NCBI GenBank assembly: GCA_011959405.1
Contig: BLLX01000006.1
Span: 1 to 50,707 of the forward strand
Direction: 5' to 3'
DNA from: Muribaculaceae bacterium
GTDB taxonomy: Bacteria > Bacteroidota > Bacteroidia > Bacteroidales > Muribaculaceae
DNA: 50,707 nucleotides
The first letter of the stretch is position 1. The number at the start of each line of letters is the position of its first letter. This document shows, piece after piece, positions 17,728 through 23,341 of the stretch. The position numbers and the translations under genes are program-made. Under the pieces are notes generated by a model. It did no database searches. It worked only from the letters and a program-made list of their open reading frames with translations, and had not been told where the DNA came from.

Positions 17728-18228
17728 TTATTCGTGATGTGCGGCATCGCGCGTGGCACGGAATGAGATCCGTTTCAGGAGGAATATTGGCACGGTGGCA
17801 CCGACAGTCATGCCCAGAAGGATGAACAGGCAGGTCATGCCGTTATGGGCAAAGAGGTAGAAATAGTGAGGAAACGAGGATTCGTCGGCGTGCATCAGGC
17901 ACAGGATGAGTCCTCCGAAGGTTTTGTAGGCGTAGATGCCGGGAATCATGGGGAGCAGTGCTGGAAAAAGGAATGTCTCGGCAGGCATTCCTGCACGAGT
18001 GGACAGGAGGACGGCCATGGTGCCGGTGATCAGTGCTGCCAGGGCTGATGCGGTGACTATGTGCATGCCGGCGGTGTCGGCGTGCATCAGGAGGAAGCGG
18101 ACGGAGTGGCCGGCGGCGGCTATGGTGGCGCAGTAGAGGTAGGCTTTGCGTGGCGGATCGCTTATGGCGGCGAATCCGATAGCGGCTATAGCTGCAAACA
18201 ATGCGTCTTGTAGAAATTCGGTGATCAT
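17728..18228 (-). CDS. Threonine/serine exporter small subunit, YjjB/ThrE_2-like
   Basis: The 166-residue membrane protein has about four or five hydrophobic segments. It contains the ThrE_2-type stretch AETFLFPALLPMIPGIYAYKTFGGL. In the two-component version of the ThrE exporter this short subunit pairs with a longer ThrE/YjjP-like subunit, which is encoded 24 nt upstream. The E. coli YjjP/YjjB pair exports succinate, whereas corynebacterial ThrE exports threonine and serine, so the substrate here is open. Confidence 0.87.
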   Translation of the reverse strand: MITEFLQDALFAAIAAIGFAAISDPPRKAYLYCATIAAAGHSVRFLLMHADTAGMHIVTASALAALITGTMAVLLSTRAGMPAETFLFPALLPMIPGIYAYKTFGGLILCLMHADESSFPHYFYLFAHNGMTCLFILLGMTVGATVPIFLLKRISFRATRDAAHHE

Positions 18229-19382: not shown

Positions 19383-19982
19383 TCAGAGGAGCGTGAGCGC
19401 GCGTTTGATAGCGGCTTCGACGCGCAGTGAGGGCTCGGCGTCGAAGAGCTTTTTGAGCACTTTCTGTGATGCCGGCCGTGTGAATCCGAGCATGACCAAG
19501 GCAGCGAGCGCTTCTTCGTAGGCTTCGGAGGGGGCGCCGGCTGCCGGGTCGGCGCCGGGTGACGTACCGGCGGAGTCGCCGGCAGGTGTGATTTTGTCTT
19601 TAAGGTCCACGATGATGCGTTGGGCGGTTTTCAGTCCGATGCCTTTGACGGCTTTCAGCCGTGAGTGGTCGCCGGCGGTGATACATTGCTCGAGTTGCTG
19701 GGCCGACAGTGACGACAGAATCATGCGGGCTGTGTTGGGGCCTACGCCGCTGACGCCGATGAGCAGGCGGAAGAGTGTGCGTTCCTGTTCGTCGGCGAAT
19801 CCGAAGAGGTCGTGGGTGTCTTCACGTATGACTTCGTGGACAAGGAGCCGGGTGTCGGTGAGTTTCTCGATTTTGGAGAAGGTGGAGAGGGAGATGGCGA
19901 GTATGTAGCCGAGTCCGTTGATGTCGATTACGACGTCGGTGGGCGTGAGACGGTCGATTTTGCCTTGTATGTGTTCGATCAT
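19383..19982 (-). CDS. ruvA: Holliday junction DNA helicase subunit RuvA
   Basis: The 199-residue protein has the family's three parts: an N-terminal OB fold starting MIEHIQGKIDRLTPTDVVIDINGLGY, tandem helix-hairpin-helix motifs (GVSGVGPNTARMIL and AVKGIGLKTAQRIIVDLKDK), and a C-terminal three-helix domain (about residues 150-199) that contacts RuvB. RuvA tetramers bind four-way junctions and load RuvB for branch migration. ruvB and ruvC are not in the window. Its start overlaps the stop of the GlmU-like gene by 4 nt. Confidence 0.97.
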   Translation of the reverse strand: MIEHIQGKIDRLTPTDVVIDINGLGYILAISLSTFSKIEKLTDTRLLVHEVIREDTHDLFGFADEQERTLFRLLIGVSGVGPNTARMILSSLSAQQLEQCITAGDHSRLKAVKGIGLKTAQRIIVDLKDKITPAGDSAGTSPGADPAAGAPSEAYEEALAALVMLGFTRPASQKVLKKLFDAEPSLRVEAAIKRALTLL

Positions 19983-21139
19983 TTGAGGTCTGCGGTGATT
20001 TCGTGGATGTGTTCAAGGATGCTTGTGTCGGCGTCGGTCATTTCCACTCCGCGCCGGCTCATGACCTTGCGGGCGGTTTCGAGGAAGCGTGGCATGATGA
20101 CGTCGGTGAATCCGGCCGCGCCGCCATCGGAGAATGATGCGACGAAGTTGCGGGGGAATCCGGAGCCGTGTATGTTGCAGCCGACTCCGACTACTGTTGC
20201 TGTGTTGAACATGGTGTTGATGCCGGCTTTGGAGTGGTCGCCCATGATGAGTCCGCAGAACTGGAGTCCGGTGCGGAGGAATCGTCGGGTGGGGTAGTTC
20301 CAGAGACGGATCTCGGTGTAGTCGTTTTTGAGGTTGGATGAGTTGCATCCGGCGCCGAGGTTGCACCATTCGCCGATGACGGCGTCGCCGAGGTAGCCGT
20401 CGTGCTGTTTGTTGGCGTTGGCCAGGAATATGGCGTTGTCGATTTCTCCTCCGACCTTGCATTTGGGGCCGAGGTTGGTGCCCGGCAGGAGTCGCGCTCC
20501 GATGCGCACAAGACAGTCGGGGCCCACACAGACGGGGCCGCGCAGCACGGCGGTTTCCTGTACTTCGGCTCCGGCGCCTATGTAGACGGGTCCCTGGCGG
20601 GTGTTGATGAAGCATCCTTCGACGTCGGCTCCTTCTTCGATGAATATGAGCGAGGGGTCGCCGATGACGGTGCATGTGGGTGAGACGGGCTGTGAGACGC
20701 GTCCGGCTGTGACGGCATGGAAGTCGGCAGTGATGAGTTCTTTGCTGAGCTCGAAAATGTGGTAGGGCTGGAGTATGGCTTTGGTCTCGACTGTGGCTGT
20801 CGGCTGGCCTTGGCGGTTGCCGCATTCGGCTATACATTGTCCGGCGGCGTCGGCGATCCATTGTCCGGGACCGAGAGCGGCTATGGCTTCGGCGAGGGCG
20901 ACGGAGGGGATTATGTGGCCGGCCATGGTTATGTCGGTGGCGGGGTCGGATGCGTTGCAGGGGTATTTGCCTTGCAGGTAGTCTTCGGTGCGGAATGAGA
21001 TGGCGGCGTGCGGCAGCAGCCGTTGCCAGTGGTCGGCTATGGTGCCTATGCCGGTGCGGAGCATCGCTACGGGTCGGGTGAACGTGAGCGGCAGAAGGTC
21101 GTCTCTGACGGATTTTATGTCGGTTAGTATGAGGTTCAT
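19979..21139 (-). CDS. GlmU-family sugar-nucleotidyltransferase / left-handed beta-helix acyltransferase
   Basis: The 386-residue protein has an N-terminal part resembling the divergent Bacteroidota GlmU-type nucleotidyltransferases (NLILTDIKSVRDDLLPLTFTRPVAMLRTGI). Its C-terminal half is built of hexapeptide repeats (for example VYIGAGAEVQETAVLRGPVCVGPDCLVRIGA), forming a left-handed beta-helix as in acetyltransferases. By family it may make UDP-GlcNAc or a related sugar nucleotide for envelope polymers, but the reaction is not proven. Its gene overlaps ruvA by 4 nt and follows the antiporter gene across a 48-nt gap filled by a 7-bp repeat array. Confidence 0.85.
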   Translation of the reverse strand: MNLILTDIKSVRDDLLPLTFTRPVAMLRTGIGTIADHWQRLLPHAAISFRTEDYLQGKYPCNASDPATDITMAGHIIPSVALAEAIAALGPGQWIADAAGQCIAECGNRQGQPTATVETKAILQPYHIFELSKELITADFHAVTAGRVSQPVSPTCTVIGDPSLIFIEEGADVEGCFINTRQGPVYIGAGAEVQETAVLRGPVCVGPDCLVRIGARLLPGTNLGPKCKVGGEIDNAIFLANANKQHDGYLGDAVIGEWCNLGAGCNSSNLKNDYTEIRLWNYPTRRFLRTGLQFCGLIMGDHSKAGINTMFNTATVVGVGCNIHGSGFPRNFVASFSDGGAAGFTDVIMPRFLETARKVMSRRGVEMTDADTSILEHIHEITADLK

Positions 21140-21195
21140 GGGAAGTTAGAAGTTGGAAATTAGGAGTGAGGAGTCGGGAGTGAGGAGTTAGAGGT
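21140..21195. repeat. Array of eight 7-bp units between antiporter and GlmU-like genes
   Basis: On the plus strand the units are GGGAAGT, TAGAAGT, TGGAAAT, TAGGAGT, GAGGAGT, CGGGAGT, GAGGAGT and TAGAGGT, with no break in the 7-bp phase (consensus NRGRAGT; ACTCCTN on the coding strand). The array begins at the base next to the GlmU-like ATG. It runs past the antiporter stop codon (21188-21190) into its last codons, so it fills the whole gap. Confidence 0.8.
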
Positions 21196-23341
21196 CGGGG
21201 GGGATGCGTGGGGGCCGGCGGCGGTGTCGCATGCGGCGTCCGGTGTTGTTGAGGTAGTTGAACAGGCGCCAGAATATGGAGGGTGTTATGTCGGCTTCGG
21301 TGCCTATGGGGTCGACGAACGACATCTTGTCGGTGTCGCGGCCGAACTGTTCGGGGAATATGACTATGAGGTTGGTCAGCGCGAAGTATTTGCGTAGGAA
21401 CGACGGCATTTCCTGTACGTCGGGGGAGTAGCTCATGGAGCCGGGGCGGGCGGAGATGACGATGAGCAGGTCGTCGTCGAGTATGCGGTTTGCCACGAGC
21501 AGGAAGTCGTCCCATTGTTCCATGTCGTGGAATTCGGACCTGACTTCAAGGCGCTCATGATGGAGCACTCCGCTTATCAGACGTCTGACGTCGGGGTGGC
21601 AGAGGAATATCAGGCGGCTGCCGAGGGATCCGGCAAGACGGCCCACTGATGCCACCCACCGGGGGAATCCGGTTTCATATTCGGCTTTCGGGGGCACCCA
21701 GACGACGAGTCGCCGCAGGGTGTTGACGGGGTTGAAGCAGCGGCTTATGAGTATCTGCCGGTTGGTGCTTTTGAGCAGTTGCTCCATTTTTGCGCCGAAG
21801 AAGGTGTCGATGATCGAGACTTTGCGGTGAAGCCCCATGATGACCGATGTGATGTCGCGTTCGTTGATGGTGTTGATGAGTCCGGTGGCAGTGTTGAGGT
21901 CGAAGCGTTCGATGGGTATCACCGGTATGTCGACCGTAGCGGCGGCGTTGAGGGCCATCTGGAGGGCGTCGTGGCCTTCGGAGCGGGCTATGGCGGTGTT
22001 GTCGTTGCGGATGTTGACGGTGTAGATGTTGTTGGCCGGTCCTCTGGGGTGGATCATGAGGGCCAGTTCCATAAGTTCGAGTGCGGTGACAGGAGAGGAT
22101 ACAGGCACCAGAGTGTTCTCGACTGTGGGGTTGGCGGCCACGGCGGTGCTGTCGTTGCGTTCGAGCATGTGGAGCTTGATGCCTGCGGCCGAGCGCGATG
22201 TGATCATCGGCGCGAGCGCGCAGGTGAGCAGGATCATGAGCACCGTGCCGTTGAGCATGGCAATGTTCATCAGACCGAAGTTGTAGCCAATGGTTACCAC
22301 GGCGAGCGCCACGGCGGTGTGGGCGGTGGAGAGTCCGAACATCACGCCGCGGTCGTCGGGGGTCATGCGGTAGAACTTCTGTGTGAGCCACGCGGCGATC
22401 CATTTGGCGGAGAGGGCCACGGCGAGCATGTTGGCGGCCATGATCAAGGTGTCTTTCTGGGCTATGACGCGAACGTCGATCATCATGCCCACGCCTATGA
22501 GAAAGTATGGGATGAAGAGGGCGTTGCCCACGAACTCGATGCGGCTCATCAGGGGCGATGTGTTGGGCACGAAGCGGTTGAGCACCAGTCCGGCAAGAAA
22601 TGCGCCGAGCACGGCTTCAAGTCCGATGGCCTGGGCCACGTAGGCCGCGAGGAACACCAGGGCGAGTACGTAGACGAACTGTGTCACGCGGTCGTTGTAG
22701 CGGCGCAGGAAGCTGCGCGTGAGCAGCGGGTATATGGAGAGGACTGCTCCGCAGTAGATTATGAGTTTGGCCAGCAGCAGGGCAATGGCGAGGATGCTGA
22801 ACTGTCCTGTGCGCTGGACGTTGAGGGCGATGGCTAGCGAGAGCAGCGCACCGATCACAGCCACTATGGTGCCGACTACGGATATGAGCACGGCCGGAGA
22901 TTTGGTGATGCCGAACCGGGCTGTGACGGGGTAGGCTATGAGGGTGTGCGAGGCATACATTGACGCGAGGAGCACCGAGGTGACCGCGTCGAGATGCAGC
23001 AGCCATACGGATGCGGCTATGCCGAGAAGCAGCGGTATGAAGAACGTAAGCAGTCCGAACACCAGTCCGCGCTTCAGGTTGAGACGCAGGTGAAACAGGT
23101 CGATCTCGATGCCGGCCAGAAACATGAGGTAGAGCAGTCCGACTTGTCCGAAGATGCTGAAGCTGGCGTCGTTGTCGAGCACGTGGAAGCCGAACGGTCC
23201 CACGCAGACGCTGGCCACTATCATGCCGATGATGTGGGGGATTTTCAGTCTGTTCAGCAGTAGCGGGGCCATCAGTATAATAGCCAGCACTATGAAAAAG
23301 ATCAGCACCGGGTTGGTGACGAGAGCTGTAGCCGGAGTCAT
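21188..23341 (-). CDS. Kef-type cation:proton antiporter with C-terminal Usp-like region
   Basis: The 717-residue protein carries about 12 membrane segments in residues 1-395, as in CPA2-family Na+/H+ or K+/H+ exchangers. It includes LYLMFLAGIEIDLFHLRLNLKRG and GLEAVLGAFLAGLVLNR, which are family-typical. The remaining 320 residues are soluble and look like degenerate universal-stress-protein domains, a common regulatory tail in Bacteroidota antiporters. It should exchange a monovalent cation for protons across the inner membrane; the ion is unknown. Its stop lies inside the 7-bp repeat array. The fucosidase gene ends 70 nt upstream on the same strand with no clear terminator between them. 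Confidence 0.9.
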   Translation of the reverse strand: MTPATALVTNPVLIFFIVLAIILMAPLLLNRLKIPHIIGMIVASVCVGPFGFHVLDNDASFSIFGQVGLLYLMFLAGIEIDLFHLRLNLKRGLVFGLLTFFIPLLLGIAASVWLLHLDAVTSVLLASMYASHTLIAYPVTARFGITKSPAVLISVVGTIVAVIGALLSLAIALNVQRTGQFSILAIALLLAKLIIYCGAVLSIYPLLTRSFLRRYNDRVTQFVYVLALVFLAAYVAQAIGLEAVLGAFLAGLVLNRFVPNTSPLMSRIEFVGNALFIPYFLIGVGMMIDVRVIAQKDTLIMAANMLAVALSAKWIAAWLTQKFYRMTPDDRGVMFGLSTAHTAVALAVVTIGYNFGLMNIAMLNGTVLMILLTCALAPMITSRSAAGIKLHMLERNDSTAVAANPTVENTLVPVSSPVTALELMELALMIHPRGPANNIYTVNIRNDNTAIARSEGHDALQMALNAAATVDIPVIPIERFDLNTATGLINTINERDITSVIMGLHRKVSIIDTFFGAKMEQLLKSTNRQILISRCFNPVNTLRRLVVWVPPKAEYETGFPRWVASVGRLAGSLGSRLIFLCHPDVRRLISGVLHHERLEVRSEFHDMEQWDDFLLVANRILDDDLLIVISARPGSMSYSPDVQEMPSFLRKYFALTNLIVIFPEQFGRDTDKMSFVDPIGTEADITPSIFWRLFNYLNNTGRRMRHRRRPPRIPPDL

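Follow-up and report, generated by a model that had tools for sequence, protein, structure and literature searches.

How does the gap between two neighbouring genes come to consist of seven-base units and nothing else? The question is raised by a 50,707-nucleotide stretch of Muribaculaceae DNA (the window; contig BLLX01000006.1, genome G000), in which an array of heptamers separates an antiporter gene from a nucleotidyltransferase gene. The array is probably a solo, ORF-less arm of an intercistronic element that resembles the intervening sequences (IVSs) of 23S rRNA. The case for this is built from the array itself, from the corresponding junctions of related genomes, from sister arrays and from the flanks of a gene family that one of the sister arrays encloses.

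The array and its junction

The plus strand from 21140 to 21195 splits exactly into eight heptamers (GGGAAGT, TAGAAGT, TGGAAAT, TAGGAGT, GAGGAGT, CGGGAGT, GAGGAGT and TAGAGGT), as described in the original prediction. A base is identical to the base seven positions further on at 34 of 49 positions, the top value of the 50.7-kb window. Chance periodicity is ruled out, as 34 matches are reached in no shuffle: the maximum is 29 in dinucleotide shuffles of the surrounding kilobase (n=500) and 27 in shuffles of the array itself (n=2000). The consensus NRGRAGT proposed earlier describes six of the units and fails for TGGAAAT and TAGAGGT, and it does seem to be the period that is conserved.

The array belongs, on the minus strand, to the same family as the other arrays of this genome. 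It is a 7-bp period array at a stop/start junction. The upstream gene (21188–23341, minus strand) encodes a 717-aa antiporter of the Na+/H+ exchanger family (Na_H_Exchanger, PF00999), and the downstream gene (19979–21139, minus strand) a 386-aa sugar nucleotidyltransferase with hexapeptide repeats (NTP_transf_4, PF13562), for which the label GlmU-like was a fair one. The next gene, ruvA (19383–19982, minus strand), is co-directional and overlaps the nucleotidyltransferase end by 4 nt. From antiporter stop to nucleotidyltransferase start the minus-strand order is ...GACCTC-TAA-CTCCTCACTCCCGACTCCTCACTCCTAATTTCCAACTTCTAACTTCCC-ATG or, by unit, ACCTC-TAA-CTCCT CACTCCC GACTCCT CACTCCT AATTTCC AACTTCT AACTTCCC, directly abutted by the ATG at 21139. 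The array reaches, as had been noted, from the base beside this ATG through the antiporter stop codon (TAA, 21188–21190, minus strand), which is in phase with the units; the eighth unit takes in both this stop and the antiporter codon before it. In line with expectation, the leader RNA has no structure at all (MFE 0 kcal/mol), and no known RNA family reaches its gathering score between positions 18000 and 24000. The array stands single, with neither a PF05635 gene nor an inverted partner.

Empty sites and sister arrays

In eight same-genus relatives the spacing at the antiporter/nucleotidyltransferase junction is −4 to +3 nt, with an ATGA overlap in three genomes and −1 to +3 nt in five, and none of them has the array. 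There is no room for it at these junctions, and the window array is thus a lineage-specific insertion at a stop/start junction, recent by the empty sites of these eight genomes, with the nearest two relatives uninformative. These two, G010 and G002, have no clean empty site: G010 has an unrelated 109-nt spacer upstream of the nucleotidyltransferase (L039, 1392–1500) and G002 has a different gene there (L038). The two have in common an unrelated spacer that ends GGAGCGCCCAAGACGTTATCGTAAATAA before the nucleotidyltransferase start and that in G002 resembles the end of the different upstream gene.

Arrays of the ACTCCTN type, whose absence elsewhere was to have counted against the original prediction, are present in the genome. 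There are about seven further (AACTCCT)n sites, a tally that depends on treating paired arms as one site or as two. Contig C4 carries an inverted pair whose arms lie about 30 nt apart and enclose no ORF, and C14 an inverted pair that encloses an ORF. Other arrays precede ychF (C16), lie between miaB and the next gene (C23), stand at a contig end (a second one on C23) or, as a solo array, precede cysS (C31). ORF-less versions occur both as hairpin pairs and as single arms. Apart from the inverted partners and the contig-end array, all of these have ACTCCT on the coding strand and a start codon directly downstream, and the miaB stop codon is itself supplied by the array (His-Ser-stop).

Two of the other junctions are also empty in relatives. 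The sufB/symporter junction holds a 469-bp insert in C14, whereas in relatives the two genes overlap as ATGA or lie only 2 to 8 nt apart, and at the miaB junction two relatives have a 15-nt gap and no array. The DUF3467/cysS junction was invaded separately in three species. It carries a solo AACTCCT arm in G000 and inverted pairs of two other types in relatives, CCTTAAA in G001 and ACACTAA in G008; the remaining relatives have short gaps. No target-site duplication is seen at the insertions.

Among 61 genomes of the genus, family and order, AACTCCT-type arrays of at least four units occur in five, and a reversed control pattern of at least four units in none. The orientation bias holds in G000, is partial in G007 and is weak in G019 and G026, where many AACTCCT arrays are not at ATGs. 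The arrays of the latter two genomes (L198–L210, L218–L237) are mixed with other C-rich repeats. In G000, the arrays on C4 (L031, 1976–2106) and C23 (L035, 2240–2313) directly follow Bacteroidota-type promoter −7 boxes, TAAATTTGC and TAACTTTGC, so that transcripts there would begin with the array itself. A perfect hairpin, CCGGGAGG-ACCA-CCTCCCGG, lies just before the cysS solo array on C31 (L036, 2040–2085) and the two have letters in common; together they are perhaps a shrunken inverted pair.

PF05635 genes and their heptamer arms

The ORF between the C14 arms encodes a PF05635 protein (23S_rRNA_IVP, E 7e-29) that contains no other family and matches a solved relative, PDB 2rld. PF05635 is the four-helix-bundle family encoded by the IVSs of 23S rRNA. 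The arms are made of AACTCCT, AATTCCT and GACTCCT units, and the heptamer of the window array is the same as that of these arms. In the element RNA, pairing of the two arms encloses the ORF in a long stem (z = −5.4). What ties the window array to the element is a common unit, period and placement, together with this one cognate full copy.

A local origin had been suggested earlier, with a microsatellite expanding in an existing gap. On this view slippage would have built a simple-sequence repeat whose copy number alters translation of the downstream gene, so that it works as a tunable leader or a phase-variable element. Tandem 7-mers are prone to slipped pairing, the single-base differences between the window units look like the outcome of expansion with later decay, the leader lacks structure, and strains of Coxiella differ in the heptamer copy number of their IVS (PMC4990558). 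However, the relatives have no gap, and no sequence at the junction from which an array could grow, and the AACTCCT heptamer recurs at about seven unrelated loci of G000 as well as in the inverted arms of a PF05635 gene. Slippage can neither put one sequence at unlinked junctions nor maintain the complementarity of two arms, and this explanation is unlikely.

With the C14 ORF recognised as PF05635, the flanks of PF05635 genes were surveyed regardless of repeats. In 30 genomes of the order a 7-bp periodic stretch is found upstream of 63% and downstream of 77% of the genes versus 0.7% of control windows (n=447); periods 4–6 and 9–12 give nothing and period 8 a weak excess. For 80 named loci (Bacteroidota, Clostridia, Cyanobacteria, Verrucomicrobia, Planctomycetes, spirochaetes and others, many of the records being metagenome bins whose names may be wrong) the values are 80% upstream and 75% downstream versus 2.8% of controls (n=1686). 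At 110 PF05635 loci from many phyla, which are kin by descent and count as non-independent events, the gene has a 7-bp array on either side, usually as an inverted pair.

The two arms of a locus belong together. Their complementarity has a median of 41.5 within a locus versus 17 between loci, an arm's own partner outscores 25 random partners in 94 of 130 cases, and the inverted arrangement is better than the direct one in 112 pairs versus 18. Heptamers are alike within a locus and differ between loci, even inside one genome; for example, one Nostocales genome has several PF05635 copies whose heptamers differ and whose two arms match in each. Longer GC-rich repeats (CTAAACGGCGCAAAGCGCCCC) and not plain heptamers flank the PF05635 gene of one locus in G007 (L269; C11, 1180074–1180388). 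The PF05635 gene of G001 has arms of CCTTAAA units that match the inverted pair at its DUF3467/cysS junction, and cognate units in arrays and resident PF05635 arms are found in G000, G001, G061 and G062. A rule that solo arrays require a resident cognate PF05635 gene fails in G007, G019 and G026; in the family members G019 and G026 no PF05635 gene with AACTCCT arms was found.

It has also to be asked whether the arrays mark shared regulation of the genes that they precede. In G000 and one relative, coding-strand arrays lie directly against start codons, and most TAACTGA sets in Maribeggiatoa likewise precede start codons (PMC4679880). A regulon would keep one sequence, and the variation of the heptamer therefore counts against it: before cysS the unit is AACTCCT, CCTTAAA or ACACTAA depending on the species, and it varies between copies inside one genome. 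The array is moreover absent from most relatives and the target genes are unrelated, which leaves common regulation improbable, more so than slippage.

The placement of the PF05635 elements agrees with that of the window array. With orientation and distances taken from simple, mechanical ORF calls, 95 of the 118 elements with both neighbours called are co-directional with both and 6 are opposite to both; at the median, the first array starts 1 nt short of the upstream stop codon's end (IQR −7 to +4), and 18 nt separate the last array from the next in-frame ATG. The whole element measures about 478 bp. Junction placement and co-directionality could come from the route of insertion or from selection against other sites. 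Telomere-like templated synthesis at broken DNA ends or junctions, with PF05635 genes as passengers, is brought to mind by the resemblance of the unit TTAGGAG to telomere repeats and by several arrays at contig ends, but short-read assemblies are expected to break at repeats and hence to end in them, and the model does not predict stop-codon placement, co-directionality or matched inverted arms around one gene family, so it is very improbable.

Known systems and a proposed origin

The closest known system is the 23S rRNA IVS of Coxiella burnetii, in which an S23p ORF is combined with a terminal stem of 28 bp and variable-number tandem heptamers and which is excised by RNase III (PMC4990558). 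The elements described here are like it in protein family (PF05635), size (about 430 versus about 478 bp), terminal inverted stem, tandem heptamers in the arm and large folding energy. In contrast to the IVS, they lie between protein-coding genes and have heptamer arrays as arms on both sides. Both the window array and the C14 copy are situated between protein genes and not in a 23S rRNA helix. The S23p/PF05635 ORF is present in the C14 copy and absent from the window array, and complementary termini forming one stem are found in C14 and the ORF-less C4 pair and not in the window array.

The TAACTGA direct repeats of Beggiatoaceae, Cyanobacteria and some Bacteroidetes, reported with no source given (MacGregor 2015, PMC4679880), are likewise short intergenic sets of tandem heptamers, often in one orientation right before a start codon, and can overlap the end of the upstream ORF. 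They differ in their unit (TAACTGA versus AACTCCT here), and PMC4679880 makes no link to PF05635 genes; G000 has no TAACTGA trimer at up to one mismatch. In Microcystis and one Nostocales genome the arms of one PF05635 copy each are of the TAACTGA type, and each genome has hundreds of overlapping TAACTGA trimer matches. In this reading the TAACTGA repeats of Microcystis are arms of such PF05635 elements. The cyanobacterial STRR heptamers of the hupS-hupL and hoxW spacers, of unknown function (PMC2670836), are also hairpin-capable 7-bp repeats in intercistronic spacers; they differ in sequence, and the comparison here spans two cyanobacterial genomes. REPIN/RAYT systems are similar in outline, with a small gene and cognate flanking repeats and with ORF-less inverted pairs and singlets elsewhere, but they have a tyrosine transposase and palindromes where the present elements have a four-helix bundle and 7-bp arrays. 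The C14 arms enclose a PF05635 ORF alone and no RAYT-type transposase.

These comparisons suggest the following origin. A full element consists, in order, of the upstream stop codon, a heptamer array, a small PF05635 four-helix-bundle gene, the same array inverted and the next ATG. In full copies the arms would pair in the operon mRNA and RNase III would excise the loop, by analogy with 23S rRNA IVSs; with the loop removed, insertion between cistrons would be nearly harmless. The element or its arms would be copied to new junctions, possibly with a need for the four-helix-bundle protein in trans. Such action in trans is a guess, to which the cognate units of G000, G001, G061 and G062 lend support and which G007, G019 and G026 contradict or leave open. 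We know of no nuclease or transposase activity in PF05635 proteins.

At the window site one insertion would have come between two genes that overlapped or abutted. The antiporter stop codon would then be supplied by the array, and the nucleotidyltransferase would have gained a 48-nt unstructured C/U-rich leader; the array itself would have lost, or never had, the ORF and the partner arm. The likely consequence is a loss of translational coupling that is otherwise near-neutral. Simple deletion of one arm and the ORF is an unlikely source of solo arrays, given that the lone array still begins at the stop codon. More tentatively, and with less than even confidence, such elements may be widespread mobile elements of operon junctions, made of a four-helix-bundle gene and matched inverted 7-nt arms, that insert in the sense strand between stop and start, perhaps via mRNA, with arm sequence free and period and complementarity kept.

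A great number of genomes carry annotated PF05635 proteins for which, to our knowledge, no function is established, and reports of heptamer repeats in bacteria go back decades, likewise with no known source. Should genes and repeats prove to be a single element, the two puzzles could be tested at once, and the clean stop/start placement poses the question whether a mobile element finds operon seams or survives only there. The mobile-element reading, if true, would explain several orphan bacterial heptamers, TAACTGA included and the cyanobacterial STRRs possibly. A literature search by exact heptamer string gave no match, and one for a link between PF05635 or four-helix-bundle genes and heptamers, with most subscription journals outside its scope, gave only the Coxiella IVS paper (PMC4990558). 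No paper on the general repeat-PF05635 link was found, though an earlier one may exist in subscription journals; a stop/start-placed insert with a PF05635 gene and mirror-image heptamers looks like a widespread but undescribed kind. The unit of the window array also occurs in a bin labelled Neisseriaceae from deer abomasum (L107), where a PF05635 gene has long AACTCCT arms; the bin may be mislabelled, or the unit may have spread by transfer.
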